In this document: positions 1 through 58,571 of the stretch, piece after piece
Layout: each line of letters starts with the position of its first letter
Position numbering within the stretch: the stretch's first letter is position 1
Assembly (NCBI GenBank): GCA_949752735.1
Contig: OX457052.1
Coordinates: 17,795,149-17,859,148 of the forward strand
Reading direction: 5' to 3'
DNA: 64,000 bases
Source of the DNA: Lumbricus terrestris
Lineage: Eukaryota > Annelida > Clitellata > Crassiclitellata > Lumbricidae
Position numbers and translations under genes: made by a program
The notes under the pieces: model-generated
Databases searched by the model: none
Told to the model about the DNA's origin: nothing
Seen by the model: the letters and a program-made list of their open reading frames with translations, nothing else

Positions 1-23
1 AGCAGCGGGCTCAGCAGAGGGTT
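1..23 (-). CDS. Gene F, start of the stalk exon (partial, runs off the window)
   Basis: First 23 coding bases of the EPAA-repeat stalk exon of gene F, the tandem copy of gene E. On the minus strand an AATAG acceptor is followed by codons for P-S-A-E-P-A-A, exactly as at 16472 in gene E, and the flanking intron is also shared with 16473-16560. The rest of the exon, the transmembrane exon and the tail lie outside the window. Homology to the gene E exon is seen directly; that it is expressed is inferred. Confidence 0.6.
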
Positions 24-127
24 CTATTTATGATTTCAAAACAAAAATAAAACAATTGCAGTCACCAGTAAAGTGTTGAACAATTGTACTAGAACGAATG
101 ACAATAGGTAGCGTAGTTCTAAGGTCT

Positions 128-3100: not shown

Positions 3101-4846
3101 TTAGAATGTCGTTGAAATGTCATTGACCTTTGCACTTGCTCCAATGGTTGATGAGCGGCCGGTCTATAACGGTCGTATCTTTCATTTGGAGAAAGCAAGT
3201 GTTCCATTCTCTGTTCCAATCGACTCCGCGGCACTCTGCCTCTTTATCGCAGTGTTCCTTACATACCTCCACATTGGGCACGTCATATTGTTGTATTCCT
3301 CCAAGGGTGTGCGCGTCTATCCGAACTGGATCCCAGCAGACTAGACAACATTCATCAACGGTTGAAGGGGGAACACGAAGTGAAACACATTTTTGGCACA
3401 GCATTAAGCGTAGCGTATACTTCGGTTACCGCTACGCAGAGCATAAATAATCTACCGAGCGTAAAACCTAGCATAACATATCGAAGAAAGGTGCAACAAG
3501 CTAATAATATGAGGGCCAGCCTTAGCACAAATGGCATCCCAGGAGAAGCATGCATTTTGGCGCCCCATGCAAAGTATAGGCCTAAATTTAGCGCCCTTAG
3601 ATTCCAACTCAATTGTTCAACCCACGTCAGAATTTAAAGATGAATTAGCCAGAGCCTTGCACAATGCATACGCTGAACTGATTAATTTATTATATTTTTT
3701 ATCAGTGCACTGAGGGCTGGATAAAATTTTGTTGTAAATGGTCATCTATATAAATAAAAACGTAAAACGTTACCGTGCCTAATCAAGGATCTCGGAAAGT
3801 TCTGGACCGATTATTTTGAAAATTTTCGCAAAACTTTCCATTCGAACATGAGCGGGTTTTTATAATGATTTTTTGGAAAAAGCGCAATCTTTTCTACCAA
3901 AAAACACAACTTTAAATTCGAGTCGTCAATTCTCACCCGACGTTGTTTTCAAATACGGCCGTGTGTTCATGCCATCGATATTAATATCGATGGTTTATGC
4001 ATATCCGCTTCTGTTCTTATAGCGCATTTGTTACTGTCGGTTTTGTGTCGATTTGCTTTCGAAAGCGGCAGTGTTTTTATGCATATCCGCGCATGTTCTA
4101 ATACCGAATATTGGCTGTCGGTTTTTACAAGATCAAGGATCTCTGAAACTTCTTCACCGTTTGCTTTCAAATGTTCACACAACTTTCCATATCCGCGCGT
4201 GTTATTATAGCGCATATATATATACTTTAGCTGTCGGGAACGGAGGGGTGAGGGATGAAGGGAGGGGAGGGAGCGGGGGAAAGAGGGAGCGGACGAGATA
4301 GAGGGAGGGAGGGATGAAGGAAGGGGAGGGACGGGAGGGAGGGGACCGGAGGGGAGGCGAGGGATGTGGAACGGGGAAGGGAGAGGAGGGAAGGGGAGAG
4401 GAGACGGGAGGGCGTGAGGGGATGGGAGGGGAGGGGGAGGAGGAGGGGAGGGGAGGAATGGAGGTATGGTGGACAGAGGAAGGGAGGGAGTGCGGCAGAG
4501 GGAGGTAAGGATGGAGGGTAGGACGGTCTTTTCAGCCACAGCAAATTGTGGCCGGGTACAGCTAGTAAGTAATAAAACTATTAAAACACACTTTTGGGAA
4601 ATGACGCCTCCCTTTGTGGAAATGGTGCCAGCTAGAACTTGACGCCCCAGGCAAATACCTGCTTTGCCTATGTGGAAAGTCGGCCCTGAATGATCTGGTT
4701 TATTCTGTGACAAATCTGTATCCGAGTTTTAATTCTTTATGATCAGCCTGTCAACCAACCTGCTGCTGTAGAACACTGAGGCACCACAAGAGCAAAGCCG
4801 ATGCACAAGATACAAACGAACAAGCGAGGTTTATCGTATGCTCCAT
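128..4846 (-). CDS. Gene F: 5' part of a PAN-domain, EPAA-stalk receptor-like gene (incomplete)
   Basis: Minus-strand gene reconstructed from exons 4846-4756 (signal), 3358-3128 (PAN) and 23-1 (start of stalk); the listed left edge only marks intron, as the gene continues past position 1. It parallels gene E exon by exon. A membrane receptor role is inferred from gene E. The introns hold the hAT/Helitron block, a truncated Helitron, a mariner and CATA arrays. Confidence 0.5.
416..495 (+). repeat. (CATA)n / (CATG)n microsatellite
   Basis: Tetranucleotide CATA/CATG repeat. Open frames through it (YIHT or MYVC repeats) are repeat artefacts, not genes. Confidence 0.9.
496..636 (-). mobile_element. 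CR1-like LINE or SINE 3'-end fragment
   Basis: Contains the minus-strand signature of the local LINE/SINE 3' end: TTTGTATAGCGCC, then a GGCGCTCCCGA-like block. It is flanked on both sides by CATA arrays, as expected if the arrays grew from element tails. Only a fragment is present. Confidence 0.5.
637..869 (+). repeat. (CATA)n microsatellite
   Basis: About 230 bases of nearly pure CATA repeat with a few CATG units. A mariner element inserted at a TA within the array, whose remainder continues at 2286-2320. Confidence 0.95.
870..2285 (-). mobile_element. mariner-like DNA transposon with degenerate transposase
   Basis: A 1,416-bp element with long terminal inverted repeats (CAGGGTGGCTCAATAAAAAA at the left, its complement at the right) flanked by TA on both sides, the target duplication of the Tc1/mariner superfamily. 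Minus-strand frames between about 1950 and 1150 give mariner transposase pieces, including FQQDGAPS, NSPDLSPLAYQVWGAMLE and a KERL.F.P block, spread over two frames with stops. It is inside a CATA array that is uninterrupted in the duplicated copy at 17660-17950, so the insertion is younger than the duplication or was lost there. Confidence 0.8.
2321..2704. other. Intronic sequence of gene F, no coding signal
   Basis: Between the stalk and PAN exons of gene F. It matches 17951-18057 and 18708-19000 of the second copy; that copy carries a LINE insertion (18058-18707) missing here. No gene seen. Confidence 0.6.
2705..3043 (+). mobile_element. 5'-truncated Helitron-like element
   Basis: Shares with the 3745-4565 element the block ending TATAGCGCATAT, a long GGGA/GGAA purine-rich stretch, and the terminus CAGCCACAGCAACGCGTGG followed by CCGGGTACAGCTAG. 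The end CTAG after a short hairpin fits the CTRR 3' end of Helitrons. The 5' TC end is absent. Confidence 0.6.
3128..3358 (-). CDS. Gene F, PAN/Apple-like ectodomain exon
   Basis: A 231-base minus-strand exon, phase 1 in and out, coding for about 77 residues nearly identical to the gene E exon at 19909-20139. It has the family pattern: DEC..., CWDPV, VCKEHCDKEAEC, GVDWN, a later Cys in TCFLQM, and NHWSKC. This resembles PAN/Apple domains (paired Cys with a C-x3-C helix). The donor is AAAG/GTCAAT. The expected acceptor reads CG instead of AG just before the phase-1 start, as in gene E. Possible alternatives are an in-frame AG ten codons or more upstream, or one inside the exon that loses the first Cys. 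Confidence 0.65.
3511..4688. mobile_element. hAT-type non-autonomous element in intron 1 of gene F (hosts a Helitron)
   Basis: Left end GAGGGCCAGCCTTAGC and right end AAAGTCGGCCCTG are imperfect inverted repeats. Flanking 8-mers AATAATAT and AATGATCT match at 6 of 8 positions; the orthologous element at 20289-21014 has flanks AATGATCT and AATTATCT. An 8-bp duplication with a CAGGGCC-like end is typical of hAT elements. No transposase frame is visible. The Helitron at 3745-4565 lies inside it. Confidence 0.6.
3745..4565 (+). mobile_element. Non-autonomous Helitron-like element, purine-rich
   Basis: Starts TCTATATAAATAAAAACG and ends in a hairpin (CCACAGCAAATTGTGG) followed by CCGGGTACAGCTAG, that is 5'-TC and CTRR-3'. 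It sits exactly between A and T. The duplicated copy keeps the empty site (GGTCA-TAAGTAGTAAAAC near 20880), which gives precise borders. About 300 bases are GGGA/GGAA repeats with almost no pyrimidines. No Rep/helicase is encoded. Confidence 0.8.
4756..4846 (-). CDS. Gene F, signal-peptide exon
   Basis: ATG at 4846 (minus strand) opens MEHTINLACSFVSCASALLL..., a start-proximal hydrophobic stretch of about 20 residues ending LSVLQQQVG, suited to a signal peptide. The exon has 30 codons plus one base, so it ends in phase 1 at GTTG/GTTGAC, matching the phase of the PAN exon. An alternative donor four bases earlier (CAG/GTTGGT) would be phase 0. The second copy at 21082-21172 conserves ATG and frame with one visible residue change, MTHTINL for MEHTINL. 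Confidence 0.65.
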
Positions 4847-12905: not shown

Positions 12906-13106
12906 CTATCGACCTACATCGGAACCAGCTACGGAACCTGCGGCGGAACCTCTTCTTGAACCAGCCATGGAACCTGCTGTGGAACCTCTTGGTGAACCAG
13001 CTGCGGAACCTGCGGGGGACCCAGCTGGGGAACCTGCCGCGGAACCTGTGGGGGAACCTGCGGCGGCACCACCACCTGCAGCTGCGGTATCAGCGGGAGC
13101 GGTAGC
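12906..13106 (-). CDS. Gene E, cytoplasmic tail exon (Gly/Ser/Ala repeats)
   Basis: After the acceptor GAATTTCAG the phase-0 frame runs 66 codons to TAG (12908-12906). It begins ATAPADTAAAGGGAAAGS and continues as about ten GS-x-x units, including SMAGSRRGSAAGS. RRGS fits a basophilic (PKA-type) phosphorylation site. Phase 0 matches the donor of the TM exon at 14474. Read on the opposite strand the same DNA gives EPAAEP-type repeats like the stalk exon, but that strand has no acceptor and an in-frame stop just upstream. Confidence 0.6.
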   Translation of the reverse strand, partial: ATAPADTAAAGGGAAAGSPTGSAAGSPAGSPAGSAAGSPRGSTAGSMAGSRRGSAAGSVAGSDVGR

Positions 13107-16100
13107 CTGAAATTCGAAAACAAAATATTTTCAGGGGAGATCATTCGTCAAAAAACAATTAATAAAACCTCTCTATGTTTTCATCTATAAAGTAAACAAT
13201 AGCTTTATTTTCGCTATAATGTTAATTGACGATTTCCTTAGTGTTCGACGACGATGTCTAGTATTGGGCTAGTCTCCAACGCCAATTGCCATCCGACACC
13301 TACAGATACAACCCTTCCTTATATTGCATCCCTTTTTCGACCGATCCTTCTTCAAACTTCGCACTTTTTTCACAGGCGAAGGTCTGAAGCAGATCGTCTC
13401 TAACTCTTTCGTCTCAAGCTACAAATAATAGCCTACCTTGCTGAGGTTTAGGAAGCAACGCGATTCGCAGATGTTTAATGAACAGTTGCAGTTTCACAGA
13501 TTTTGAAGGCCTTTAACCTACAACCTGCAAGCGTCCCAGCATGTTTTTATTTGCAAGTATAGTTACTACGTTCCTAGAAATAAAGCCCACGTTGTAGCAC
13601 ACTTCGTCAAACTTTGTCTAAACGGATTGCACCATCAAAAATGCGAGTGCAATTTTTGGCGTGTTAATTAAATAATTCAAATCGACTGAATTGTCAATGA
13701 CGCCAATCAAGACCTGCGTGTCATTTATTTACCCTATACGATTGTTCCTAACAGTTCGCCATCTTTCTATCTCAATTCATCTTCTTGGGGCGCCTGTCTG
13801 AGCTGATCGTTACATTGCTCTACCTCAAAATGTCAGTGCTGGTCTCAAAACGACATGGATAAGAGCTGTTTTGACGGGGCTATTTCGACGGGGCTATTTT
13901 GTCTGAGCTGATCGTTACATTGTTCTACCTCAAAATGTCAGTGCTGGTCTCAAAACGACATGGATAAGAGCTGTTTTGACGGGGCTATTTCGACGGGGCT
14001 ATTTTGTCTGAGCTGATCGTTACATTGTTCTACCTCAAAATGTCAGTGCTGGTCTCAAAACGACATGGATAAGAGCTGTTTTGAAGGGGCTATTTCGACG
14101 GGGCTATTTTGTCGGGAACTACTTTTTCTGGGCTGTTGTGTCGGTGGGCGATTATGACGGGGCTGTTTTGTCGGTGGGCTATTATGACGGGGCTGTTTTG
14201 ACGGGGCTGTTTTGACCGGGCTATTTTGACGGGTCACCGGATAAGACGCCTCTGGAATGATCGACTTTTGACGGTATAGGCCTGGTTGTTTAATTTAATC
14301 TGAATCCATAGACTAAATGTCAGTAAATTCTTTATAAGAAATAAATTCAGAACTGTCAAAGATGATCGATCATCTCAGAATTTAAAAAAAATAAAACCTC
14401 CGGAAATCTCGACCAAAGAAATTTAACAAGCTGATGTCAATGAACTCAGAAAAACTCGGTTGAATTAGTCTACCTGGATGCTCTGGTAGCTTCGAAAGGC
14501 GTTCTGGCTTGCGGTAAGTGGTTTTCCGCCTCCGTCTGGGTCAGGCCGTGTTCTTGAGACTATGTAGGCGACGAGACCGATTATAATCAGAACGAGAACT
14601 GCCATCAGCGCAGCCAACGTAATTATCCCTGAAATAATCGTCAAGAAGCTTAAACTCGAGCGCATAATAATTATACGAATGAATGAATTTAATTCAAAGG
14701 ATGAATGAATGAATTGAATGAACGAATTTGTTTATTGCACACAAAAATCAAACGGTACAAATATGAGTCAATAAAGTACAGTGCAATAGGAGTCCGGAAA
14801 AGCTAATAGCTAGCTTATACTACCCGGACCCCTCTTCCTTGACTATTTTCATGCATGCTATTATTTCACTTAACTAGAACATAATTGACGAAAGTACTAG
14901 TGATGAACATAATATGAAAATTATAATAATAAAAATAATAGTAAATATAATAATACCAAGAAAATAAAAATAAATTATGTTTTTGTTGTTGTTGTGGTAA
15001 CGCGGACGCGTCACTAGAAGACGAAGTCTTGGAAATGTTAAGCACAGCAGGTTTCTGAATGATTGACCGTCTGTGGAATACCAATCCAATTGGTGCCCAG
15101 CCGACCCGAAATCTCTCTCTGGAGTCCATAAGGTCGGTAAGTTAAGTCAGAAGGTTGAAAGAGAGATCTGCTGTTGGATTTTTACGATGATGTCATACTT
15201 GGTTCATAAACGAATGATTCATTGTCAATTGAACAAAAAGGCCTACTGGTAATTCATCGTTTGTTCAAATAGTTTTGCCATATACATAGATCTATGCAAG
15301 CAATAAATCAATCATTCCAAAAATCAATCAATTTCGTTAAACTCGTTTACTCCTTTGACGCCGATACTGGCAAGCAATGCCTAATTGTTCCTAGCATAAC
15401 CATCAGGACTTGTTTAGAAAAAGTTAAGCCTGATCATCAAAAACCTGAAGCTCAGATAATTAATCGAAAGCCGCTTCTCCTCACATTCAACCAGATGAGG
15501 TAGGTAAAGTGCAACGATTGGATTGAGATAGCCACCCCATCCTGAGATTACTACCCATTTTGAAATTGTCATCACGTTTTTCGATTGACATCCAATTCTG
15601 AGAATACCAACCCATTCTGCGATTGCCGCCCATTCTAACATTGCCACCCAATAATGAGACTGCCACCCCATAATGAGATTTCCAGCCATTATGTCCCATT
15701 ATTGCCAAAACATTCTAAGACTGCCAACCCTTTCGTATATATATCCTTCAATAGCTTGAATCCAAACTAGTGCATTTTGGTAACCAGGTCAAATTTTATT
15801 GCAAAAATTTTAACCGTGTTAAGGGAACTTAAGGAATCAGATTTAATACGAGAAAACAATATCAAAATGAATAACAGTTAGGACAAATGAATTAATGCAG
15901 AGATCCATAAAGGAAAGATGAGCTGAGATAAATACCTATCATGAAGGTTGGGCACTTCTTTTCCTTTTTCGATTTCGCTGCAGCACTTTCGCCAGTCTCT
16001 GCCTCGCCCTCCTCCTCTTCCTCAGATTCTGTGCCGTTGTTTGCCTCGGTTCCATTCTCGGCTTCAGCTGGCTCCTCAAGTTCGCCTTCAGCTTCAGGCT

Positions 16101-19100
16101 CAGCAGCGGGCTCAGCAGCGGGCTCAGCAGCGGGCTCAGCGGCTGGCTCAGCAGCGGGCTCAGCAGCGGGTTCAGCAGCGGGCTCAGCAGCGGGCTCTGC
16201 AGCGGGCTCAGCACCGGGCTCAGCACCGGGTTCTGCAGAGGGTTCAGCACCGGGCTCAGCAGAGGTCTCATCACCAGGCTCAGCAGCGGGCTCAGCAGAA
16301 GGCTCAGCACCGGGCTCAGCAGCGGGCTCAGCAGAAGGCTCAGCACCGGGCTCAGCAGCGGGCTCAGCACCGGGCTTAGCTGCTGGCTCAGCACCGGGCT
16401 CAGCAGCGGGCTTAGCTGCTGGCTCAGCACCGGGCTCAGCAGCGGGCTCAGCAGCGGGTTCAGCAGAGGGTTCTATTTATGATTTTAAAACAAAAACAAC
16501 ACAATTGCAGTCACGAGTGCAGTGTTGAACAATTCTACTGGAACGAATGACAATATGTAGTGTAGTTATTAGATCTCAGATTAGTTTTTTTTACCACAAA
16601 AGATCGCTTCGTCTGACCAACTTTGAAGCTTAAAATGTGTGGCGAATTTCATTTAGACCAGTGATTTCCAACCTTTTTTTGCTTGCGGCACACTAGGAAA
16701 GAATAAAAAAATTCGCGGCACACTTAACAATAATTACTAACCTTTTTATATAATTGTTACTATTATTCGATAATATTCTAATTTTAATGTTCTTATTGTA
16801 TAATAATTCTCTAGTGAGTCTAGTCAATGAGCAGATCAAATTAAAACCAGGCGTCAGAGACGACAATCCTACTCGCAGTTCATCGTCGATTCTAAAAAGT
16901 CTCTTCCTCTTTTTACACTTTATTTCAGTTCTGGCTTATAATCTAAATTCACGCAACCACGAAGATGCAAATGGCAGAAGAATTTTGACTGCTTGCGAAT
17001 TGATCGAAGGATTTTATCTCTGAATGGAAGGCCAAAACTCATTCAAACTCTTTTTGGAAAATATTGACTGATAGATTTGTCATTTCGTAAATCAATCAGC
17101 TGTTCTTCATCCTCGGTTGTAAGATTTGTTGTTTCGCCGATTACGAATGAACTGATTTGGCCTACCCAGTCAAAATTGTCGATTGCAAGCGAAGGAAAGT
17201 AATGCTGTACTGCAGGTTTTAGATTTATCAATATGTTTAGTATTTCAGGTGTAATTTTCCTTTTAAACTGAGATTCATTGACCGTGGGAAAACAATCAAG
17301 ATTTCCCTTTGAGATCTTAACCTGCTACAGTGTGAGAGATTAAGATCAACTGACTTTAAGTTTTGATGTTGCAGAGATGATGTTTTCGAATGTTTTGTTT
17401 AGAATCATTACTAATTAATAACATATTAGAATTTTTCCCGCGGCACACTTGGTTGGGAATCACTGAGTTAGACAGACCTAATTTAGTCACAGAGTAATTA
17501 CGTTAACATAATTATATGTGACACTTACATATACACACACTGACATAATACATGCATATGCTCATGCACACATAAATATAGAAACATAAACATATACACA
17601 CATTCACACATACATTACATGTGCATGTAAGCAATGCACATTACCTAATGCACATTACTTACATACATACATGCAAGCATACATACCTACATACATACAT
17701 ACATTAGATTCATACATACATACATACATTAGATTCATACATACATACAAACATACATACATACATACATACATACATACATACATACATGTACATACAT
17801 GCATACATACATACATACATACATACATACATACATACATACATACATACATACATACATACATACATACATACATACATACATACATACATACATACAT
17901 ACATACATACATACATACATACATACATACATACATACATACATACATGTAGGTGATTACTTGCACGCGTGTCTATGTTCTATCATTCTGTTGCGTACAA
18001 TTATAGCATTAACCACCGACTCTTTGCGAATCTAGTGAATATGCATCCAGGCAAGACAGTCGCTTTACGCCCTGCGAATCATGACTGCACACGGCCTCAA
18101 GGGACCAAGTCTGCATTGCATGACGTTGTTAGGATGACCACATTGGCCCGCATGTTACACGAGGCCCCGGCATGGTGGCGATTTTCAGGGCAGCAGGAAC
18201 GCGGCAGATTGCCGGCCATATTGGACCGTTTGATCCGAATTCACTACCTTCCTGAGGATAATCCTGCCTTCGAGAAGCTATGTAGAATGGCAGACGGGAG
18301 GCTCTTCGCTGCCCTCCTACTTAATGAAGGACATGTGTTACACCCACTCCTCCCACCCTTGAAGCCAATTCCATGAGGCCAAGACTACATGACTGAATCA
18401 TCCCTATGGCGGAGAACCTAACGAGGAAATCGTTTTTGACGAGAATGCTTTATCTTATTTGAATGTCTTATGACCTACCATATAAACCAAAGTGCAGCAT
18501 AAATTGTTGGTCATTAAAAGAAGATCATTTTCATTTAAAAAATTATATTGGATTGTGGAATTAGGATTCTGTGCTATTTGAAAACATTTTGACATTGAGT
18601 GGATATAGAAATGATGTAGCCTACGTTTGTTTATTTATACCATGTCTGTGCACCAAAATGCGGATAGCAATTGGTATATTAAAGAATATTCTTATCTTAT
18701 CTTATCTTTGAGGTCGTGAAATCAATGCTGTAAGTTCAACGCGCATCCCAGTTGCCTTTCTATTTCATTTCGATTTCACTAAGAAGTTTCGTGAGCCGAG
18801 GAAATACAGCGTCGCCTTACGTCGTGCATCGCGGTCAATCTTTGCAGCCGACAAAGAATGATCATAGAAACAGCCACAGTTCACCATCTGTATGGCTTTT
18901 ACATGCTAAGCACTGGACCCGCTTACACAGGTGCGAGATGAAGTTGTAGAGATGTAGACTATCAATGACAGTGCAATGATCTTGCCAACCCGAGAAAATA
19001 CTATCAAAGCAAGAAATAAAAGTCGTCCTTCATTCATAAGACTACAACAAGCAGATAAAAAAGATCGGCTCAATGACAATTGCTTCATTGAGAAAAGCCA

Positions 19101-35708: not shown

Positions 35709-38700
35709 GTTAGTAAAGCAAAACAATTTATTTTATTGGACTACATAATATTATAGCTGCCATTATAAATTATTTAATATTTTCCAACTTACACACTGTA
35801 TATACCTGAAATGCAATAATTAGGGTTCTTATCCGCAAATAAGTCATGTTAATCATTCTGTAAATACATTTACGACATCAACAATGTGAAGTCGTGTGTT
35901 GACAAGTTAGGGGTGTGGGGTATAGTGCCTTGGTTCAAGGCTCAAATCCACCTCAAGCCGCCGCATAGGGACCTTGAGCAAATCCGTCACTCGAAATTGT
36001 TGGGGCGCTACGGCATGAAATTCCGATGTAGTGTCCGCGCTGCAGTCAGGAGAACCTCTGAGTAGCTGGCTTGAAATGGCGCTACAGAAATGTAGAAATG
36101 AACAAAATAAATAACGACGGTGTTCCTGTGATTCTGACACATAGAAACATTCCTATTGTGATGGGTACTGATGCTTTGTTATTTTAACTAATCTACTATA
36201 AAGCTTACTTTAGTGGATATTCAAAATCTTGTCTTCTTCTTCTGTCATTCATACAATTTTGGTCTGATTAAATGTTTGACGGATGATTGTCGTATCATAT
36301 TAATTTTGGACGCTGTTCCTCTGACATTGTGGTTTCGCTTTTGGAGTTTTACTTTGATTAATCCCTATCTTAGCAGTTGTCCATCTGAACTTCACCTACA
36401 ACCAACATCGATCAATGCCCAGTGCAATATTGCATAATGTGCGCCATAGAAGTCACTTGGCTGAATCAGAATTTACTGGCTTAGATTATAGACCGTACTC
36501 TATTGGAGTAAATCCAGTTAGATAAGATTAGATAACATTAGATTAGACTAAAATTAAATAGGGAAGGTTAGATGCAACATGCCTAATGTTTAGGATATAA
36601 CCTCGCTCCTGCCTACCTTATAGCACGCTCTACTCTTAGTGCTCGTCCTCTGCATGCGCTCCCTTCGTTCAGGTGAACAAAGTCTCCTCTCTGTCCTATT
36701 CAAATTGGGGGGATCATCCGGAGGGAGGTAATTGTTCGGAGGAATGTGTCCAGGGATAAATGTCGGTTCCCCGTTTCTATCTGCTCCGTGATATCTGGTA
36801 CATTTTCCGATTGTGTATTCTTCGTAACTGACTTTCCGGCTTAGGGTATATAATATAATTAATTTATCTTTCTGTCCTATGTGATTTTAACTGCTTATAG
36901 AAGAGAAGCTTGATAGATGTTATTTACCTTTTGATAACTACTGCATCATATAAATTTCCTGAACGGATTAGATTATAACTATCAACGCTTCCGTATTATA
37001 ATAAAAGTAATGTGATAATAATTAGGCGATTATATAAACAGTAAAGGCTACTGTCGGCGTTTCCTCTCAATAGGCTCTACGTTAAATGTCATGCTAATTG
37101 CTCAACGCGACGTGCAGGTTCAATAATAGGCAAAATAGACAATATTATGTTTGGCTTAATTGTTTATGTAATTTTTACCGTCATTATCGCCAATTTTCAG
37201 TCGATAATGAATGTTCTCCACGTTGCTGGGATCCAGTTCACAATAACTCGCACGTTGCTAACGGTATAGAGCTGTATGGAGTGGCCAATGAGGAGGAATG
37301 TAAAGAACTTTGTATAAACAATGGAACGTGCATCGGTGTCGATTGGAACAAAATATTGTACAGCTGCTGGTTCCAAATGCAAGATGAGATCATACATTAC
37401 GAACCGGATGCCAACCATTGGAGTCTGGCCAATTGTACAGGTCAGCTACATCACAGTTCATCTTCATGGATAGGCCTATGCGTCTCGCATCTATAGAAGA
37501 AAACGCGCTCATTCGACAACTGTATATAATATCCTAATTTTATTTAATGCTACTTCTTGTATAGCCATGCTCCACGTCATTCAGTTCACCCATTTTTTTT
37601 AGGTCGTCCACCTTTGTTTGCACCATCCATCATTCGCAACACAAACGTTTTAATTTTCCTGTCATTGCTCATTCTGCATAATTTCGTGTTCAAATAATCA
37701 ATCCCAACTTCTTTGAATTATCTTCTGCATTGAGTTCTAAGCCGATCAAGTCTGCCCTGAAGTTTCATTTCAGAATATGATTTTCGCAAATCTGATTTGG
37801 CAATGAGTGAAATTTTTTATTATCTCTTTATATCTCAGTCTCCAGTCTCCTTTCTGAAATTCCGGAACCACTCCTCAATCAATGCAGCGTCAGCTCATCG
37901 AAATGAATTCTCAAAATAATAATTTATATCGTCATCACCTGTAACTTATATCTCCTCCAAGTACCATCTTTGCAGTTTTCCCACTTACGACTGATAAATA
38001 ATAATTATTCAAACTCTTCAACCTATCCTACCCTGGTTCTACTCCCACGTCATCATGTATACGACCACTATTACCAACAGTCTCATCGTAGGACCATAAT
38101 TTTTTCTCTTCGTCTTAACCTCCCCGGATTCTTAACTGGCACCGGATCGGACGAAAGAACCTATAGCTAGTTTCAATTTTATTTGATATATCGCCAGTAT
38201 TAAGCTGGGCTTTATGTGGCTTTCGTGTGCGCTGAAAATTTTAGAAGAATTACATTAGGCTACAACAGAAGTATGAACTGTTTCAGATGACTGTGTTTCA
38301 TATTGTTGGGGACCGGTCAAAATCAATTTTCACGTGGTCTTCGGCATTCCTCAGTCAGATATTCCAGATGAGAACCACTGCAAACTTTTCTGTAGCAACG
38401 AAACGACTTGCACTGGAATCGACTGGGACGGGGTGCAGTGTTGGTTGATATTCAATGAAAGTCCTGCCACGGATCAAGAAGGAGTGAATCATTGGGACAT
38501 CGAAAGGAATTTGCCAACCATCTGTCAGAGTTAGTGCAATATTATAATTTATGTCATTCTGAATTTAATTCCAAGGAACTAACTCTCTGTGTAATATACC
38601 AGGGTTTTCCTGTGCTTCTGGAGACTCGATAGTGCTGCGAACAACCTTGTACAACAGTGTAGGCTACATGGCTGTCTAGCCTGTCTAAGAGGTAAGCCGT

Positions 38701-38930: not shown

Positions 38931-39001
<71 letters not shown>

Positions 39002-40568
39002 TGACCAAACCACAGCCGCACATGTCTGTTCCAATGTACTGATTTAAAAATTTCATTTGTTAAGGATGCTAAATGGCTTAATCTAGGCCTACTCTAGCTT
39101 CTTAGACATGTCTTGGATCCTGAAACCTGAAGATTCAAATATTTTGAATTGCTTCAGCAAATTGAACATAACTCAATCCTCGTAAGTATTAGGCCTAAGT
39201 AATTTCCAATTTCTATCTCTTGTGACTCAGACGATAATGTTAAACGTGTTCGTGCTACAGAGTTAAATGCTTTTCTCAATTTTATTAATCTGCAGCAGAT
39301 TCAACACACTATTCTACTTACACATCTATCAGCAAGAATAGTTCGTCGACTGTTTCTCGGGCTACTGATTCAAGTAACACATCTCCTACGGTTGGTATTG
39401 GATTGAACACAACGCAGACCTCAACGGACTCTTTGGAGGAAAGAACAACTCATGAATGTTCGGACAATATGACAGGTTATTTTAATTAATATATTGTTGT
39501 AATAATTATACTGGGTGCTGACACTCATCATGCTATTACGTTATTATAAATCCAACATCATTCTCTCTCCTCAGAACCTGTTTCTACTATCGCGGTGCTC
39601 ACATTGCCATTACTGTGAGCGGGGCTATTTAAGTCAAAAGTTATAAACTACATTGCATTATACAATAAAGAGCCTGCATGTATTACTTTTAAAAAACATT
39701 GATCAGGATAAAAGGGCAGTAATTTGAAGCAAGAAGCGCATTATAATGAGCTAGGCCTATTTAAAATTTATGATTAAGAAACGATGATCGCCTGAGGTTT
39801 CCTGTTGGCCAGGAAACCCCAGAAGAGTGATTCTTAGAACTCTTTGATTGTTCAAGTCTGCAAATTTGTAGTTTTTAGGTGATTTTTCAATACCTGCGTT
39901 GATATCGTATTTTCAGGTATCATTGTGTTGGCGGTACTGTTGGGCATTTGCATTTTTCTTATTATCGGACTGGTCATAAATACCATCAGAATTGGACGAG
40001 AATCACTCCCGAAAAGTGACATCAAGAGTGTTGTGTTGGATGACAAGTATGAAGGCTTGCAGGTGTGTATTATGATCGACAGTTGATTAACGCATCGTAA
40101 CCTTGTCTACAGTGTACGCTTCGCATTTTATTCAGCACCATAATAATGATTGAATCCATCAATGCATGCAGGCTCAATGCAAGTTTTGCAAGGTTTGTGA
40201 ATAAAGAGCAGGCCTATATAAAAATAAACTATGCAACTTTTGTCAGTGCAGTAAATAATTTAACCTGTCGTCCATTAACCGAAGAATTGGCAGCGATCGG
40301 CAGTGAAAGATCCTTTTTGCAGTTTGAACATTTCTGTGGAAGATTTAATTTCCATCAGATAGCAAATTCCATTTATAAAGCAAATGTTATTTATTGATTT
40401 TTATAGACAAAATCGGGATCCGTTGATTCATACACGGATTTAGTGCAAGGAAATTTCCCATCGAGCATGGAGGGACAAGCGGACGATAGAAGAGCGACGA
40501 TCGATTCGGCTGAGATTGACCAAAAAATGTGGACTGAAGCGCTGGCAAGAATTGAAGACATCATATAG
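35630..40568 (+). CDS. Gene B: type I receptor-like protein, two PAN domains, TM, ITAM-like tail
   Basis: Exons: 35630-35708, 37201-37440, 38287-38529, 39299-39475, 39917-40062, 40407-40568. Phases 1-1 throughout and 0 before the tail; 1,047 bases, 348 residues. Order as in gene A: signal peptide, PAN1, PAN2, Thr/Ser stalk, TM, tail. YEGL and YTDL are nine residues apart, within the wider ITAM definition (6-12). The tail is the longest of the family. The best-supported gene here: all borders are canonical and each exon has a paralogue in A. Activation through a Syk-like kinase or endocytic sorting are both possible; neither is shown. Confidence 0.8.
35895..36110 (+). mobile_element. tRNA-derived SINE, diverged
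   Basis: GGTTCAAGGCTCAAATCCAC, CCTTGAGCAAATCCGTCACTC, then GTGTCCGCGCTGCAGTC and GGCGCTACAGAAATG. In intron 1 of gene B. Confidence 0.75.
36111..37200. other. Intron 1 of gene B
   Basis: No exon or clear repeat apart from the SINE just upstream. Confidence 0.4.
37201..37440 (+). CDS. Gene B, PAN1 exon
   Basis: CAATTTTCAG acceptor, ACAG/GTCAGC donor, 240 bases. VDNECSPRCWDPVHNN, EECKELCINNGTCIGVDWNK, CWFQMQD, NHWSLANCTG. Most similar to the E/F PAN exon (CWDPV, GVDWN, NHW), linking plus- and minus-strand genes. Confidence 0.85.
37441..38286. other. Intron 2 of gene B
   Basis: No feature recognised. Confidence 0.4.
38287..38529 (+). CDS. Gene B, PAN2 exon
   Basis: TTTCAG acceptor, CAGA/GTTAGT donor, 243 bases. 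DDCVSYCWGPVKINFH, HCKLFCSNETTCTGIDWDG, CWLIFNES, HWDIERNLPTICQ. One residue shorter than the gene A PAN2. Confidence 0.85.
38930..39001 (+). repeat. (ATT)n microsatellite
   Basis: About 24 ATT units in intron 3 of gene B. Confidence 0.95.
39299..39475 (+). CDS. Gene B, Thr/Ser stalk exon
   Basis: CTGCAGCAG acceptor (CAG repeated, three-base alternative possible), GACAG/GTTATT donor, 177 bases. NSTHYSTYTSISKNSSSTVS..., ending ERTTHECSDNMTG. Several N-x-S/T sites. Confidence 0.8.
39917..40062 (+). CDS. Gene B, transmembrane exon
   Basis: TATTTTCAG acceptor, CAG/GTGTGT donor, 146 bases. GIIVLAVLLGICIFLIIGLV then INTIRIGRE, ending LDDKYEGLQ. Confidence 0.85.
40407..40568 (+). CDS. Gene B, cytoplasmic tail exon (long form)
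   Basis: TTTTTATAG acceptor, phase 0, 53 residues to TAG. TKSGSVDSYTDLVQGNFPSS, then an acidic/basic segment ending ARIEDII. The extension after about residue 20 aligns with sequence that is untranslated (after the stop) in C and D. Confidence 0.8.
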   Translation, partial: TKSGSVDSYTDLVQGNFPSSMEGQADDRRATIDSAEIDQKMWTEALARIEDII

Positions 40569-45790: not shown

Positions 45791-45869
45791 ATGGACTACT
45801 CTAAACTCTTGAGAATCTTTGTTAATTTTGCGGTTTCGCTTCAATGTCTATCAACTTCACAGTCACACG
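45791..45869 (+). CDS. Gene C, signal-peptide exon
   Basis: MDYSKLLRIFVNFAVSLQCL then STSQSH; donor CACG/GTTGGT, phase 1. Intact. Confidence 0.75.
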
Positions 45870-46309: not shown

Positions 46310-46579
46310 ATTCGCCACGAAACTGCACTAACACTGGACCGACGTGTATCGAAAGCTGCGCTTCACTGGATGACGGAGATTATCAGTGGTGTGGAGGTTG
46401 TCGCTACTATGTTACTTGTAGCAACAGCATACTTTTTATCCATCCGTGTCCGTCGGTGCTCTACTGGGACGATAATATGAAGCAATGCTATTATGCGTCC
46501 AGCACCTGCACAGAATGTGTGAACGATACCTCAACGGCTACCACGACCAAAAGTACGACTACGAAGACCACAGTTATCG
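46310..46579 (+). CDS. Gene C, chitin-binding (CBM14-like) exon with Thr linker
   Basis: CTCTAATAG acceptor, ATCG/GTAAGA donor, 270 bases, phase 1-1. SPRNCTNTGPTCIESC, YQWCGGCRYYVTCSNS, HPCPSVLYWDDNMKQC, STCTEC, then TTTKSTTTKTTV. The C-x5-YYVTCSN-x-CP-x-LYWDD-x-C order fits peritrophin-A/CBM14 domains, which bind chitin or related glycans in other proteins. Confidence 0.8.
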
Positions 46580-47949: not shown

Positions 47950-48003
47950 GAAACTGAGACAAATATGGGATCCGAAGATCGAACGTACGCGGATTTAATT
48001 TAA
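47950..48003 (+). pseudogene. Gene C, truncated tail exon
   Basis: CTTTTACAG acceptor, ETETNMGSEDRTYADLI then TAA. In gene D the aligned codon is CAA, so the tail ends early here. Orphaned from any TM exon. Confidence 0.6.
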
Positions 48004-51286: not shown

Positions 51287-51362
51287 ATGGATTACTCTAA
51301 ACTTTGCAGAATGTTTTTAAATGTTGTGATTTCGATTCAATGCCTATCAACAGCACAGTACA
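51287..51362 (+). CDS. Gene D, signal-peptide exon
   Basis: [20 protein letters not shown] then STAQY; donor TACA/GTTAGT keeps phase 1 although one codon shorter than the paralogues. Confidence 0.75.
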
Positions 51363-54300
51363 GTTAGTAAAAGAATGTTCTCAAGACAACGAAGCTAATG
51401 CTGAAAAATAAATAATTTTATCTTTCTCTAAATCATCAAAGTTAGATTCGCTTGAAAAAGGTTATGACGGACAAAAAAAACTTGTTCAAGACAATAATAG
51501 TATTCCTTTATAAATTTCAAACTGACACGCCGTAGAATCAGAGGCGGATACAGAAATTTTCGAAGGGCGGGGCCAAAATAATTTAGTGTCTTGGAAATCT
51601 GATGTTTTAGTCGTTTGGTCGAAATGTCGGGAGAAAGATGCCACTTTGTCCGCCAGGACGATCGATGACCGTTTTTTAAGCCGTCGTTTGGCCGAAATAT
51701 TGGCAAAAAAGAAAAAGACAGCATTTCTTCAAAAAGTAGACTATGACATTTTTAGTCATACGTTACTTTTCTCTCTGTCTTCTCTTTTCTTTTTCCCGTT
51801 GCATTGCATCGAACCTCTAGGGGTCGGCACGCCCATTTTGCCGGCAAGAATAGCTGGTGACAAATGTGCAAATATCTCAATTGGGGCCATGGCTGGATTG
51901 GGCCTCTGGATCCGCCCCTGCGTAGCACAATCATAATTCATAATATTGGCGGATGATTAAAAAGTTATTCCAAAAGTCAAATTTGACTATTTGGCAACCA
52001 TGCCAGGTGTCCATCATTTCCTACCGTACTGTTTATTTTACCAAACGCTATTTGGTAAATGATAGGTTGAGTCGACTTTCAGGTGGGAATCGATTTCGCG
52101 TCCGCCCCGATATTAGTTATATCATATCCTTAGAGCCAGCGTTTAAAGTGTTAAAAGAGAAGTGCCTGGGCGCTCCTTAACTTTCCATTATGTGCTGGCA
52201 AGATAAGTGGCAAGATGGCGTTCAGATTTTAAAATAAGTGCATGGACGCTGTCCATGAACGTCCAACCACACTTTAAGTCCTGCTTAGACCCATAAAATT
52301 ATTATATCCTATCTCTGTCTAGCCTTATTTCAGCGTAGGAAAGCATGCCGTTTTATTGATCGGGTGTTCTACGATTCGGGCACAAGTGAAAGTCATCGAA
52401 CTACTTTGAAGGAAACTAGCGTCATGCGTCATGTCCGCGTCGTGATAAATTTGGATATCTGGAATCTCTTCGGCTGTCCTATTATGTCTTCCCTAGATTT
52501 GAGTGTTTTAATAAATACCTCATGGTCACTGATAGATTATTGGACTAACACAGCTTGTTACATGTTTAACGACACTGCCATATCAAAGATGATTAGTGTC
52601 GCCCTCCTCCTTTATCCAGGCTTGGGACTGGCACTGACAGAGAACAACCAGAGGTGGAGTTCACAGTTCCTTTATAGGCTATTTATCTGTTCTTCTGATC
52701 CATCTTTTGTACTTTAGCCCAAATAATCCCAGACTTAGGCCTACAACTTGATGCTCAGTACATTGCTGTAGACTTATTTAGACAGACAAGGCTATAGGTT
52801 AGACCGTAGAGGACACCAAATGCACATTACATAAAATATTAAATAGCTTGCTACTGAGCGCAATTGCATACTTCCCAAACTTATCTGCTGCGGCAATTCA
52901 CAGCAGATGTTGGTTTGTAAGTACCGGTATTGACGCAGATTTCGTTGTTGGCCAATAATATTTTGATTTGTTTGTATCTACCAGTTCCGCCGCGATACTG
53001 CACGGACACTGGACCGACCTGCACCGAAAGCTGCGATCCACTCGATAACGGAGTACCCCTATATCAGTGGTGTGGGAGTTGTCGGAACTTTATTCAGTGT
53101 AGCAACGGCATCCTTCACTACCACGATTGTACAGCGAACCTCTACTGGGACGACGATTTGATGACCTGCGCCGCTGTGTCCGACACCTGCACAGAATGTG
53201 TAGTCCATACCTCTACGGCTACCACGACGAAAAGTACGGTCACGACCAAAAGTACGGTCACGACCAAAAGGACGACCACGACGAAAAGTACAACCCCGAC
53301 CAAAAGTACGACACCGACCAAAAGTACGACCTCGAAGACCACAGTTACCGGTAAGATTACGGCAAAAGAAAGGGAACCAATAACGTCACAACTCACAACC
53401 TCTAGAGCATTCAGAATTCGTGGCCAGTTCAATGGAAATGACTTCCGCACAAGTTAGGGCAGCGGTTCCCAACCCGTGGCCCGCGGGCCAAAAGTGGCCC
53501 GCCTGGCCTACAAAAATGGCCCGCAGCATCTCAATGAATTAAGAAAAATACAGGTAAAAATTGACAATTTGGACAAGATTGAATATATAGGGTGACACGC
53601 TTTCGCCATTATTTATAAGAAAATGCAAAGACGACAATTTTTGCGTAAAAACTGCGTTCATCATAATTATTAACACAATAAAGAAACTGTGTATATGCCT
53701 AGCCTCGTATACAAGCGTGACAAGACACTGTTGTATGTATGTATGTATGTATGTATGTATGTATGTGCACTTGTTATAGCGCCCCTTCAAGCTCTCTCTA
53801 CTCAGAGGCGCTCCCGAATGCAGAGCGGACACTGCATCGGAGTTTCACGCCGAAGCGCTGAGCAATTGTGAGTGAAGGACTTGCCCAAGGTCCTTACGCG
53901 GCGAGGTGGATTCGAACCTCGAACCTTCCGGCTTCAAGGCAATGACGCCACCACTAGACCACCGCGCCCCACGTTGTAACCTATATAGGACATACACAGA
54001 CGTAGGCTATTAGCGTACAGTGTCTCCTTTCTGCTTAATGACAGCACTGCCTCTATCCGGCATGACTGGATCCGCCTCTTAAGTGTCCCAACTACTATCG
54101 ATCTCCACGCTCGTTGGAGGTGACGCTTGAGCTGATCAACGTTCTTTGGCTCAGGATCTTTATAAACGCTGAAAGATAAAATACTCCACAAGTTCTCAAT
54201 AGGAGAGAGGTCCGGAGAGTTGGGTGGCCAATCTTTCGGCTCTATGTGTGACGGGAGGTTGTCGTCTAGCCACTTTGTCGTCACAGCTGATGTATGACAG

Positions 54301-57300
54301 CGTGCGCCATCCTGCTGAAATACTCATAATAGGTCATTGTCAACAAATGACTTTCGTTGCATGACACTGCCGTTGTCATTTTCTCTCTCGAACGCTGGCT
54401 TCGCGATCTGCTCGAGAATGTTGGCGATTTTACGTATTACTGCGAGTTCAGTCTGCAGGGTACCATTTGGCACAAATTCAAGTTTAATGAGACCCATGGC
54501 AGTCATCCCACCCCAAACCATCACCGACGGACTAAACTTCATATGTGGAGCAGGCGGAACGTAAGCTTACTCTTCCTATGCCAAATAGAGCTAGTGCTGT
54601 CATTAAGCAGAAAGGAGACACTGTACGCTAATAGCCTACGTCTGGGTATGTTCTATATAGGTAACAACAGTGCCTTGTCACGCTTGTGTACGAGGTTATT
54701 CGTACACACAGTTTCTTTATTATGTTAATTTTTCCGCAAAAACTGATCGTCTTTACATTTTCTTATAAATAATGGCGAAAACAAACCGGATCACAGTCAA
54801 ATTTGTACCAGTATCTTTAATGTGACTGAAGTATACACTGAAAAATATTATAGAAAAATATGAAGCCGTTACTGAGATAACGCATTTTGAAAACGGTGAA
54901 CGAACTTTCGTGTCACCCTATTATAATTCTTTTCTATTACAAATTATTTTATTTGGACGTTAATAAATCGCATCAAAATAGAATGTTTGATGCGATTTAT
55001 TAACGTCCAAATAAAATAAAGGAGGATGTCAAACGAATAGAAGCGTTCGAGATGTGGATATGGAAAAGGATGGAAAGGGTCAGCTGGACAGAGCATACAT
55101 CAAACGAAGAAGTATTGAAGAAGGTGGAAGAGGAAAGATCCTTGATGAAAACAATTAGAACAAGGCAGAAGAACTGGATGGGACATATACTGAGAGACAA
55201 CTCCTTGCAAAGAGACATAGTGGAGGGCAAAATGGAGGGGAAGAGGGGAAGAGGAAGACCGAGGGAAAAGTTCTTGGACTGGATGATGGAGGATGGATAT
55301 GGAAGACTCAAAGAAAAAGCACAACACCGAGAAGAGTGGCGTCGTTGGGCATCTGGACCTGCCGAGAGGCAGCAGTCCTAAAGAAGAAGAAGAAGAAATA
55401 AAATAACATTCTATTTTGATTCAATTAAAACAATTTTATACGCCTTTAGTTAATTAAATTTTAGCCTTCTGCAGAAATTGTCCTATTTAGGCTACATTAG
55501 GCCTATATTCTACTTCTATTCGTAGGACAAAGGTTATTAGAAATGTTAGCCTACTTCGTTGACCGTTTAATGCGCTACTGTTTCAGGTACTACATCCCCT
55601 ACTGCTAGCAGTGCAACGAGCACCAATGCACCTCCGAGAAGCTCAACAAAGTCTACGGAGGGTCTGCAGAGCTCAACCAAGTCTTTCGATGATCTACAGA
55701 GCACAGCTGAATCATATGAAGAAGGAAAAGCTGAATGTCCGGACGATTTACTACCAGGTGACTTTAATCGACACCTTCTTAGACTTCACTCATGGCTGAC
55801 ACTCACTACGATATTGCGTAATACGAATCCAATCTGCAAAATCAATCGGCAAAATACATTGCCTTAATGGACGTGTTTTAATTGATACTGCAATTGCATT
55901 TGTATGCGTGTAGTCTAAGTTACCGGTACTTAAGGTTCAATTATATGTTTTTGCCAATTAAATTTTTTGTAGTGAAGTAGACATAACAGGCTACGGTTTG
56001 TAATTTAATGAGTAGCCACACGGGTAACACCACGATAGTCGGTGCCAATGCAGCCCTAAACTGTTGTGTGAATACGAGAACCAACACAAGTTATGACTTT
56101 TAAAGGGTGCTTGCCATTGCTGTGACTTAGATGACGTGTTACTTCGGACGTCGCTGGGTACGGGAAGGTTGGTCATTGGTCAACGCCTTTGTTTTGGAAA
56201 TCAAATGTGTTATCTCAATATCCAGATGAATTCGTCTTATGCTTCTGGTGAGTTAATGTAAACGACTGCAGCATGCGTCGATTTGGAGTTTGTTAAAACT
56301 CTTTACTAGCCTCGTCACAGTCAGTTCGCTCCAGTGAAAAAGAGATCAAACGCCCAATCGCCAGATCCAACAATACTCTTCCTGAATTGAAGCGTCATTC
56401 TGTCGCACGATATTCAAGCTCAACAGAATAGATCTGACTCTGTATATTACACTGTAGCCTTGTTGCGAGAATTTTTATCACTATAGAGACCCAAGGGATA
56501 AATTATTGTAAGCTTACACCTTAGATGTGCTATTTGTTGTGGCTTCTGACTGTTATCAGCTGCATATTTTGCAAATATGGTAATTTGAACGTCTGCGCGT
56601 GTTTTTCAGGTATAATTGCATTGGCGGTATTGTTGGGACTCAGCATTTTAATAATAATCGGACTCATCATATACATCGTCAGATTTAAACGACAACCACA
56701 TCTGCAAAGCGACACCAGATGTAGTGTAGAGTTGGATGACAATTATGAAACTTTAAAGGTGCGTAAAGTGACCAGTTTAAATATTCGTTGTAATCTCATC
56801 GTTTATTGTTCTACCCTTTGTTTCAGCGCCACAAAAATTAGCTGAAGGAGCACAGATTCTAGGCACACATTCGGAGCAAATTAGCTGAAGGAGCGCATAT
56901 TCTAGGCACACATTCAGAGCAAGGTGGAAGAAGCATTTGTTTTTGGCAGACTTTGTGAACGTGGCGCAGGGCTGTATTAAAGATAAGTTGTGTGATAGTT
57001 CATCAGTGGGGTAAAGACTGATAAAACCTGAGAAAAAAATGCAATGTAACACCATGGGCGCCCGAAGAAATTTTTGCAGGAGGGGCAAAAACAATGGTCA
57101 CGGTTAATTTTTTTAGCAAGAGCTTGAAAATGCAAAGCAGAAACTTAAGAACACGGTTATTTTTCACAGAGGTTTCTATAATGTCAAATTCTCAGTTTAA
57201 CATTGTGTATAATTTTGTAACATTGGCACTTTAGTGCGAAGAAATTTGTTAAAAACCAAAAAGCAGTAGTTAAAAATAGTAAATCGATTTTCCAGGGGGT

Positions 57301-58571
57301 CAAGTGCCCCCTCTTGAAACAAATGGGCGAATGCAGGCCTAAATTAATAAATTATGAGGCTCACTGTGACCTATTTTGCTAATTGATGGAATTTTCTTGT
57401 TGTTATGACACTTAACATTATTTCGGCTAGTTAGCGCAGAGAGCGCCTCTGAGTAGGTTTCTTGAAGAGGCGCTATATAAATACTTGAAATAAATAAATA
57501 AATAAACAGAAGAATACTTTCGAAGCTAAGAAATGCTACTGACAGTATGCCAACTATGCCCTAGGAAAAATACAATAGGCCTATAGACTTACTCTGTAAC
57601 GGTCTCTGTGTTGAGAGTGGTGTCGAAAGGTATCCTGTCAACAGGGCGCAATTCAAAAGGGCGCAATCAACAGGGCGAAAATCAATAGAGTGCAAGGTCA
57701 TTAGAGCGCATGATCAAAAGGGCGAAACTCAAAAGGGCGAAAATCAAAAGGCCGCATTTTTAAAAGGGCGAAACAAATGGGCGAATGCAGGCCTGCCAAT
57801 TAGGAAATAGGAAAATATTAAGAAATAAAGATGATTAAAAAACAAAAATGTGGTCAGTTAGCCTAGACCTAAATATTTTCTAATCCGTAAAACCTAATAT
57901 TAAAAACACGATTGATCGTTACATTATTTTATTATAAAAAGCTACTTTGATTCCAAAAAGGTTACTAGGCTACTAAAATATAGACTACTAAGACTGATCG
58001 TCATATTGGAAAAAGAGAGTTGCCGATATAGCAAAGCTACTTTAATCATTTCAAACCCGTGTGATTTTGATTGCTCCTCGTCTTTAAAAACACGCTCTTT
58101 ATTTAACTTTTCTGTTTGCACCTTTAAAACTTGCGCCCTGTGACTTATCGAGGGTCAATTAAATTGCCGTTCATTGAACGTTCGTTCTAGCGATTTTCGC
58201 CCCTTTGATTGCGCCCTTTTGGTTTCTCTTATGCTCTTGTCTTTTCGCCCTTTTGACCACGCGCTCAAATGAACATGCGCTCTATTGATTATCGCTCTGC
58301 TGATTGCGCCCTTTTGTTTGCGCCCTTTTGATTTGCGCCCTGTTGATAGCAAACCGTGTCGACAGGTTATAGAAGACGCATCCGATGATAAGGAAACTTT
58401 ATGCAATAATGAATCTCAATCAGATAAAAACAAATCCAATACAGTACTATAATAGTCTATAATAATTATAATTTTTAACGTTTACAGAGGACGGAGTCGA
58501 AAGTGAGAGCCGAATATCAAACGTACGCGGATTTAGTTCAAGGAAATCCCAAAAGCCTGTATGCGAACTGA
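51287..58571 (+). CDS. Gene D: type I receptor-like protein, CBM14 domain, mucin stalk, TM, tyrosine-motif tail
   Basis: Exons: 51287-51362, 52985-53350, 55587-55757, 56610-56758, 58488-58571; 846 bases, 281 residues, phases 1,1,1,0. The ectodomain has a chitin-binding-like domain instead of PAN domains, then TTKST repeats and a second Ser/Thr-rich exon. The TM exon (LDDNYETLK) and tail (YQTYADLV) are clearly paralogous to A and B. YETL and YADL are 13 residues apart. A glycan-binding surface receptor is inferred; no function is proven. Introns are crowded with a Tc1/mariner, SINEs, LINE pieces and a foldback element. Confidence 0.75.
51539..51920. mobile_element. hAT-like element, 382 bp
   Basis: CAGAGGCGGATACAG and CTGGATCCGCCCCTG ends (13 of 15); flanks CGTAGAAT / CGTAGCAC match 6 of 8. 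Related inside to 7593-7966. Confidence 0.65.
52430..52610 (+). pseudogene. Possible decayed PAN2-like exon in intron 1 of gene D
   Basis: A frame reading [20 protein letters not shown] then DTA resembles SNTSSCTGIDW...CYLLNSTG of the gene A PAN2, but most Cys are gone and no good splice sites frame it. A near copy of 48 bases at 25313-25360 could make it just a repeat. Confidence 0.25.
52985..53350 (+). CDS. Gene D, CBM14-like exon with TTKST repeats
   Basis: TATCTACCAG acceptor, ACCG/GTAAGA donor, 366 bases. [54 protein letters not shown], then about eight TTKST-type 15-bp units. The gene C exon has only about two such units, so the repeat has changed length since duplication. Confidence 0.85.
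53464..53530 (+). mobile_element. Solo hAT-like end
   Basis: CAGCGGTTCCCAACCCGTGG then CCCGCGGGCC, a common hAT terminal style. The other end was not found. Confidence 0.4.
53590..54918 (-). mobile_element. Tc1/mariner-like element with long inverted repeats, transposase broken
   Basis: GGGTGACACG and CGTGTCACCC ends flanked by TA; inverted repeats extend over 200 bases. Minus-strand pieces [20 protein letters not shown] and [15 protein letters not shown] are transposase DDE-domain blocks, separated by frame breaks. The left repeat is split by the SINE at 53735-53972. Confidence 0.8.
53735..53972 (-). mobile_element. tRNA-derived SINE nested in the transposon end
   Basis: (ATGT)n, then GTGCACTTGTTATAGCGCCC to ACCACCGCGCCCCAC; box B complement GGATTCGAACC. 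GTTGT on both sides is the target duplication, and the right inverted repeat near 54669 shows the empty sequence. Confidence 0.85.
54944..55019. repeat. Perfect 34-bp inverted repeat, 8-base loop
   Basis: Arms 54944-54977 and 54986-55019 (core GACGTTAATAAATCGCATC) around ATAGAATG. It directly abuts a LINE fragment, and CATTCTATTTTGAT recurs at the far side (about 55409). Confidence 0.9.
55022..55400 (+). mobile_element. LINE reverse-transcriptase C-terminal fragment
   Basis: [55 protein letters not shown], ending in stop and an AAG-repeat tail. Same type as 26440-26900. Confidence 0.8.
55587..55757 (+). CDS. Gene D, Ser/Thr stalk exon
   Basis: CTGTTTCAG acceptor, CCAG/GTGACT donor, 171 bases. 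[20 protein letters not shown], two STKS.....LQS repeats, ending [10 protein letters not shown], equivalent to ECSDNLTG of gene A. Confidence 0.75.
55758..56609. other. Stalk-TM intron of gene D
   Basis: No feature recognised. Confidence 0.4.
56610..56758 (+). CDS. Gene D, transmembrane exon
   Basis: GTTTTTCAG acceptor, AAG/GTGCGT donor, 149 bases. [20 protein letters not shown] then IYIVRFKRQ, ending LDDNYETLK. Confidence 0.85.
57055..57320. mobile_element. Partial MITE related to 46924-47218
   Basis: CATGGGCGCCCGAAG start and shared AAGAGCTTGAAAATGCAAAGCAG interior. Confidence 0.5.
57430..57505 (+). mobile_element. LINE/SINE 3'-end fragment
   Basis: AGAGCGCCTCTGAGTAGGTTTCTTGAAGAGG, GCGCTATATAAATACTTG, then an AAAT-repeat tail. 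Confidence 0.6.
57638..58346. mobile_element. Foldback-type element made of short subrepeats
   Basis: Both arms begin TCAACAGGGCGCAA and consist of many 12-18-base units such as TCAAAAGGGCGAAAA, inverted between arms; the middle (about 57810-58130) is unique AT-rich DNA. Flanks GTCGAAAGGT and GTCGACAGGT may be the target duplication. The gene C intron lacks it. Confidence 0.8.
58488..58571 (+). CDS. Gene D, cytoplasmic tail exon
   Basis: CGTTTACAG acceptor, phase 0, [20 protein letters not shown] then PKSLYAN and TGA. YADL plus overlapping YQTY. Following sequence is conserved with C. Confidence 0.8.
   Translation, partial: RTESKVRAEYQTYADLVQGNPKSLYAN

Follow-up and report, generated by a model that had tools for sequence, protein, structure and literature searches.

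A gene cluster for putative type I receptors that combine PAN or CBM14 ectodomains with ITAM-like tails in the earthworm Lumbricus terrestris

A tandem array of receptor-like genes on one earthworm chromosome

The stretch of DNA analyzed here (64 kb, C18:17,795,149-17,859,148 of Lumbricus terrestris; hereafter the window) contains part of a tandem array of related genes that occupies at least 425 kb of C18, a 39.89 Mb scaffold, and that continues well past both ends of the window in the flanks we examined. C18 is 39,888,740 bases long and fits chromosome 17 (39.89 Mb) of wcLumTerr1.1 as listed in the assembly report (PMC10799228); the genome copy we searched comprises 1,056,305,194 bases in 331 contigs and represents one haplotype of one worm, slightly smaller than the 1,056,547,181 bases in 361 scaffolds given in that report.

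Three of the window's genes are complete: spliced as predicted, with AG/GT borders, gene A (26308-32912) has a frame of 317 amino acid residues, gene B (35630-40568) one of 349, and gene D (51287-58571) one of 281; the intron between the transmembrane (TM) and tail exons is in phase 0, and all others are in phase 1. The three share one architecture (Table 1): a signal exon; two PAN exons (A and B) or one CBM14 exon (D); a Ser/Thr stalk; a TM exon that closes with YxxL; and a tail exon that supplies another YxxL/I. Blastn comparison of A and B yields six segments, five of them on exons (signal, PAN1, PAN2, stalk, and TM) and one outside (30713-30761), with no segment for the tail exons. As the A/B segments are so largely limited to exons, it is these rather than the introns that have been retained. 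No relatives of gene B were found in the protein database at E≤0.01 among 936 candidates.

Table 1. Exons and exon remnants of the receptor-like genes in the window
Feature	Position in window	Strand
Gene F PAN1-like exon, copy of E, same acceptor change	3128..3359	-
Gene E candidate tail exon, Gly/Ala/Ser-rich, no tyrosine	12906..13106	-
Gene E TM exon ending YQSI	14474..14628	-
Gene E stalk exon, EPAAEP-type repeats	15936..16472	-
Gene E PAN1-like exon, acceptor AG reads CG	19909..20140	-
Gene A exon 1, signal peptide	26308..26386	+
Gene A exon 2, PAN1	27857..28096	+
Gene A exon 3, PAN2	28853..29098	+
Gene A exon 4, Ser/Thr-rich stalk	30907..31053	+
Gene A exon 5, TM and YEGL	32184..32332	+
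Gene A exon 6, tail with YTNI, stop	32820..32912	+
Gene B exon 1, signal peptide	35630..35708	+
Gene B exon 2, PAN1	37201..37440	+
Gene B exon 3, PAN2 (fold modelled)	38287..38529	+
Gene B exon 4, Ser/Thr-rich stalk	39296..39475	+
Gene B exon 5, TM and YEGL	39917..40062	+
Gene B exon 6, tail with YTDL, stop	40407..40568	+
Gene C exon 1, signal peptide	45791..45869	+
Gene C exon 2, CBM14 and Thr-rich end	46310..46579	+
Gene C tail-exon remnant (YADL), out of frame if joined to exon 2	47950..48003	+
Relic signal exon with stop codons	49287..49337	+
Gene D exon 1, signal peptide	51287..51362	+
Gene D exon 2, CBM14 and Thr/Lys repeat stalk	52985..53350	+
Gene D exon 3, Ser/Thr-rich stalk	55587..55757	+
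Gene D exon 4, TM and YETL	56610..56758	+
Gene D exon 5, tail with YADL, stop	58488..58571	+

Profiles built from the family were scanned over 264 kb (the window, 60 kb upstream, 80 kb downstream, and 60 kb in two extra blocks; 5 kb of the total are N), giving 34 PAN matches (2 of them fragments of <60 residues), 17 TM, 12 signal, 10 tail, and 5 CBM14 matches. The deuterostome setting implied by the original prediction had to be given up: the host is an annelid, and the invertebrate code translates its mitochondrial COI into a full-length protein. In this protein AAA stands at Lys sites and ATA at Met sites that we take to be conserved, an assignment at odds with the mitochondrial code of echinoderms. 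Besides the mitochondrial contig C331, C318:35670-38654 also matches COX1, in a split form, and is either a nuclear copy or a contaminant.

TM exons of the family are confined to one region of the genome

A search of the whole 1.06 Gb genome (E≤1) produced 13 matches to the B-type TM exon and 7 to the E-type TM exon, together 20 distinct TM exons or remnants that all lie within C18:17,650,996-18,076,139, with none elsewhere; some of the 20 are partial, and 5 are weak (E 0.003-0.045), one of these with a stop codon. With all 20 matches in one C18 region, the similarity goes far beyond that of unrelated hydrophobic helices, the condition by which the original prediction proposed to be judged. 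The predicted gene cluster is real and bigger than claimed, with 20 TM places genome-wide, although its details differ: C is incomplete, and E and F belong to another subtype. Six TM exons had been counted in the window, a number we reject because the family has four there (A, B, D, and E); C has lost its own, and F has one beyond the window, at -2940 to -3095. In an alignment of the 12 TM exons of the first 204 kb, YxxL/I stands at the same place at the exon end in all 12, as predicted, whereas the proposed core IIIGLV-x-YIV is exact in the E-type exons only.

Incomplete and divergent copies

Gene C retains signal, CBM14, and tail exons without a stalk or TM exon between them, the alignment with D and with another CBM14 gene, H (79.3-98.9 kb), jumping across that stretch; C is accordingly rejected as a full receptor. 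Because the frame of the joined exons stops shortly past the CBM14 exon, C is either a soluble derivative or a pseudogene. The relic first exon of the original prediction was recovered near 49287, with stop codons in its sequence. Gene G (75656) aligns as a copy of the 3′ half of A; a third ectodomain type ahead of the TM exon at 75656 was considered and rejected, no such exon being found there.

Genes E and F, on the minus strand, are duplicates of one another (blocks 70-93% identical) and form a separate subtype with a single YQSI motif and a long repeat stalk. The EPAAEP-type repeat exon that makes up this stalk varies in length (Table 1 for E; -518 to 23 in F). For neither gene was a signal exon found on the minus strand; where a PAN acceptor normally has its conserved AG, both read CG; and the tail exon is rich in Gly, Ala, and Ser and has no tyrosine; the shared exon set of the original prediction is thus full in A, B, and D, but not in C, which has no stalk or TM, nor in E and F, which have no recognized signal exon or tyrosine tail. 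E and F may be degenerate. The stalk, TM, and tail exons of E nonetheless join in frame, and the E and F PAN exons have diverged more at silent than at coding sites (Ka/Ks 0.15, from few changes), so that these exons may still be in use.

Such copies raise the question of whether most of the array consists of decaying or unexpressed duplicates, with a few genes (A, B, and D) making protein. The loss of stalk and TM from C, the reduction of G to the 3′ half of A, the relic at 49287, the lost PAN acceptor of E and F, and the stop codon in one remote TM match are all consistent with this. We nevertheless judge it improbable, since three genes in the window are intact, E reads in frame from stalk through TM to tail, and the exon-limited similarity of A and B shows constraint.

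Identity of the PAN and CBM14 ectodomains

The original assignment of the ectodomains to PAN and CBM14 is upheld by Pfam matches and by a confident PAN fold model. With 30.4 bits, B exceeds the Pfam cut-off for PAN_1, which A narrowly misses (20.9 vs 21.4), and CBM_14 scores above the cut-off in C and in the D exon. Among the PAN exons scanned (21 of the 23 PAN matches in the first 204 kb; E≤0.01), PAN_1 was matched by 15, PAN_4 by 8, and PAN_3 by 3. The B PAN2 exon alone has no Pfam match at E≤0.01; its fold model has a pLDDT of 89 and a pTM of 0.76, and a Foldseek search with the PAN model returned 77 matches at E≤10, of which not one reached E≤0.001; the top ones have E values of 0.03 or worse, but probabilities of ~1 and TM-scores of 0.57-0.74. 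The top structures are the HGF N-domain, plasminogen, and the apple domains of factor XI and kallikrein. A PDB search with a single PAN sequence gave no useful match; a PAN profile search gave 10 PDB sequences, including saratin, a leech inhibitor.

All five CBM14 exons match CBM_14 (Pfam, E≤0.01) and have invariant cysteines in alignment, and the CBM14 profile matches tachycitin, Avr4-type, and CBM14 chains, some of them weakly; the CBM14 fold model is poor (mean pLDDT 52). No Ig family was found in A, B, or C (Pfam, E≤1), which have PAN or CBM14 instead.

ITAM-like motifs in the tails

The second YxxL/I is present in nine of the ten tail exons found, Cys replacing Tyr in gene H, and the best-conserved tail columns (I and L merged) are the L/I, D, and Y of the motif. 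Eight of nine TM-tail pairs have both motifs, as YxxL-x(9-13)-YxxL/I. Measured against the textbook ITAM, YxxL/I-x(6-12)-YxxL/I, four of the nine pairs have the spacing, four more have a spacing of 13 (which becomes 10 or 12 under some alternative acceptors), and one is without the second Tyr; a stricter pattern (spacing plus an acid at -3) is found in two, and an ITIM-type site, [SIVL]xYxx[ILV], in just one, so that the tails do not qualify as ITIM tails. The tail profile found no tail exon for 8 of the 17 TM exons in the 264 kb. The ITAM-like tails of the original prediction therefore hold insofar as two motifs occur in eight of nine pairs, but textbook spacing is limited to four of nine, the strict pattern to two of nine, and tails were found for about half of the TM exons. 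Taken together, the gene models, the Pfam matches, the PAN fold model, and the genome TM searches support a clustered family of type I receptors in which PAN or CBM14 makes up the ectodomain and the tail is ITAM-like.

YxxL/I also fits the AP-2 endocytic sorting pattern, and the main rival to a recognition function starts from this double meaning: the genes may encode adhesion or scavenger-type proteins of gut or body-wall epithelium, whose PAN and CBM14 domains would hold mucus, collagen, or chitin and whose YxxL/I would be an AP-2 endocytosis signal. CBM_14 is a chitin-binding family, the PAN domains resemble apple domains that bind proteins and glycans, and four of the eight paired tails exceed the textbook ITAM spacing, all of which would suit such proteins. 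Two YxxL/I motifs 9-13 residues apart in eight of nine pairs, the second of them with D ahead of L/I, are however more than a single sorting signal needs, and fast turnover of copies is commoner among recognition genes; on balance we consider the epithelial explanation possible but rather unlikely.

Ectodomain exchange and turnover of copies

A tree of 32 PAN exons divides into two clades of 17 and 15 (support 100/100), and since A and B each hold one exon of each clade, the ancestral PAN gene had the order PAN1-PAN2. C, D, and H retain homologous signal exons (e.g., 85% for C vs H, 65% for C vs A), and the TM exons of D and H are homologous to those of the family; CBM14 has replaced the PAN pair, with three exons of it in H. 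A genome search with the CBM14 exon gave 81 matches at E≤0.01, and the best of those outside the cluster map to 0.46-0.56 Mb of the same chromosome (54-59% identity). Two of them apparently share its exon form, and the exchanged exon may therefore have come from there.

Several observations concern the wider distribution of the two domains. The CBM14 exons at C18:455856-563528, 54-59% identical to the D exon and similar in exon form, are accompanied by more at 3809798-3851552; other CBM14 matches, at C6:45480494-45483175 and 45761753-45767245, fall inside open frames of 84,345 and 11,657 residues, which could reflect an N run or a giant repeat frame. PAN_1 has at least 39 genome matches (150 of 618 candidates scored), among them further groups at C1:58.2-58.5 Mb, C9:6.15-6.18 Mb, and C18:23.3, 31.3-31.5, and 32.8 Mb, and PAN domains look widely expanded in L. 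terrestris.

The Nei-Gojobori rate ratio is 1.00 in CBM14 (2 disjoint pairs) and 0.61 in both PAN and TM (5 pairs each); the difference between CBM14 and TM in D and H is not significant (p 0.09-0.15). The ratio is at least 0.93 in 7 of all 10 CBM14 pairs, a hint, short of proof, that change in CBM14 is relaxed or diversifying. We reject faster ectodomain evolution as a proof of function, PAN and TM having the same ratio and the CBM14 difference falling short of significance.

In the flank at -59999 to -46587, a 2.9-kb tandem copy of a PAN1-PAN2 unit, 8.4 kb away, is 98% identical, and a third unit is 91% identical. The 98% copy may be either a recent duplication or an assembly duplicate. Turnover of copies is evident from this tandem copy, from G as the 3′ half of A, and from the absence of two exons from C, and it appears to be fast and to proceed by duplication, deletion, and exon replacement.

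Candidate functions and known systems

We infer an immune or self-recognition use, and see about an even chance that the locus is a fast-turnover array of ITAM-like type I receptors serving, probably, immune or tissue recognition. On such a scheme, i) the PAN or CBM14 ectodomain would bind a glycan, chitin-like, or protein ligand on the surface of coelomocytes or epithelium; ii) a Src-type kinase would phosphorylate both tail tyrosines; iii) a tandem-SH2 kinase of the Syk/Shark type would dock and start phagocytosis, encapsulation, or cytotoxicity; and iv) rapid duplication, deletion, and exon replacement would be expected of a recognition repertoire.

Among comparable systems, vertebrate FcγRIIA, likened here by description, carries an ITAM in the receptor chain itself, with tandem YxxL/I at a spacing of 12 residues and an Ig ectodomain. 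The VCBPs of amphioxus and tunicates are immune-type proteins with a chitin-binding domain, but they are secreted and have Ig V domains, whereas earthworm CBM14 sits on a TM receptor. PAN/apple proteins (HGF N-domain, plasminogen, factor XI, kallikrein, saratin, and plant SRK) share the fold and the cysteine-rich module; they are secreted proteases, growth factors, an inhibitor, and a plant kinase, and none has the TM and tail of the earthworm family. Alr of the cnidarian Hydractinia has an IgSF-type ectodomain, unlike the earthworm PAN and CBM14. As described in PMC12065747, Alr is likewise a cluster of candidate recognition receptors with ITAM/ITIM-type motifs, and fester/FcoR of the Botryllus fuhc locus is a clustered type I receptor family with ITIM, hemITAM, or core YxxI/L/V tails. 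The Botryllus ectodomains are Ig and Sushi in a tunicate, and the earthworm genes have PAN pairs or CBM14; Botryllus FcoR and Hydractinia Alr are the closest working analogues, with other ectodomains. Literature searches for PAN domains together with ITAMs in echinoderms, with allorecognition, or with sea cucumbers found no paper.

These analogues invite a more specific reading, in which the array is a histocompatibility-like complex that compares self with other worms and drives second-set graft rejection, using PAN/CBM14 ectodomains, ITAM-like tails, and exon replacement but no Ig. Quicker second-set allograft rejection and coelomocyte transfer are reported for L. terrestris in PMC6113390, and other invertebrate allorecognition loci are, according to PMC12065747, clusters of YxxL/I-tailed receptors. 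Those loci have Ig-type ectodomains rather than PAN or CBM14, and the earthworm PAN exons give no evidence of excess selection over TM (0.61 in both), so that we regard this reading as improbable. If true, it would represent a self/non-self system without Ig domains, and the second-set rejection and coelomocyte transfer reported for this very species (PMC6113390) make a link between the array and graft rejection worth testing.

Earthworm transplantation immunity has been on record since the 1960s (Cooper 1969, cited in PMC2248247). One mapped locus of intact, fast-changing, ITAM-like receptor genes offers concrete candidates for earthworm recognition; and we know of no recognition receptor identified for earthworm graft rejection. 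Should the recognition reading prove true, a tyrosine-signalled receptor cluster could be built on PAN and CBM14 instead of Ig domains.

Repeats in the window

At window positions 832-2323, 53973-54668, and 57654-58316, inverted repeats (205, 91, and 74 nt) resemble the terminal repeats of DNA transposons, their arms lying 0.5-1.1 kb apart. A dispersed, SINE-like repeat of ~110 nt is found in both orientations at 5275-5853, 21545-21676, 47721-47915, 53794-53969, and other positions.
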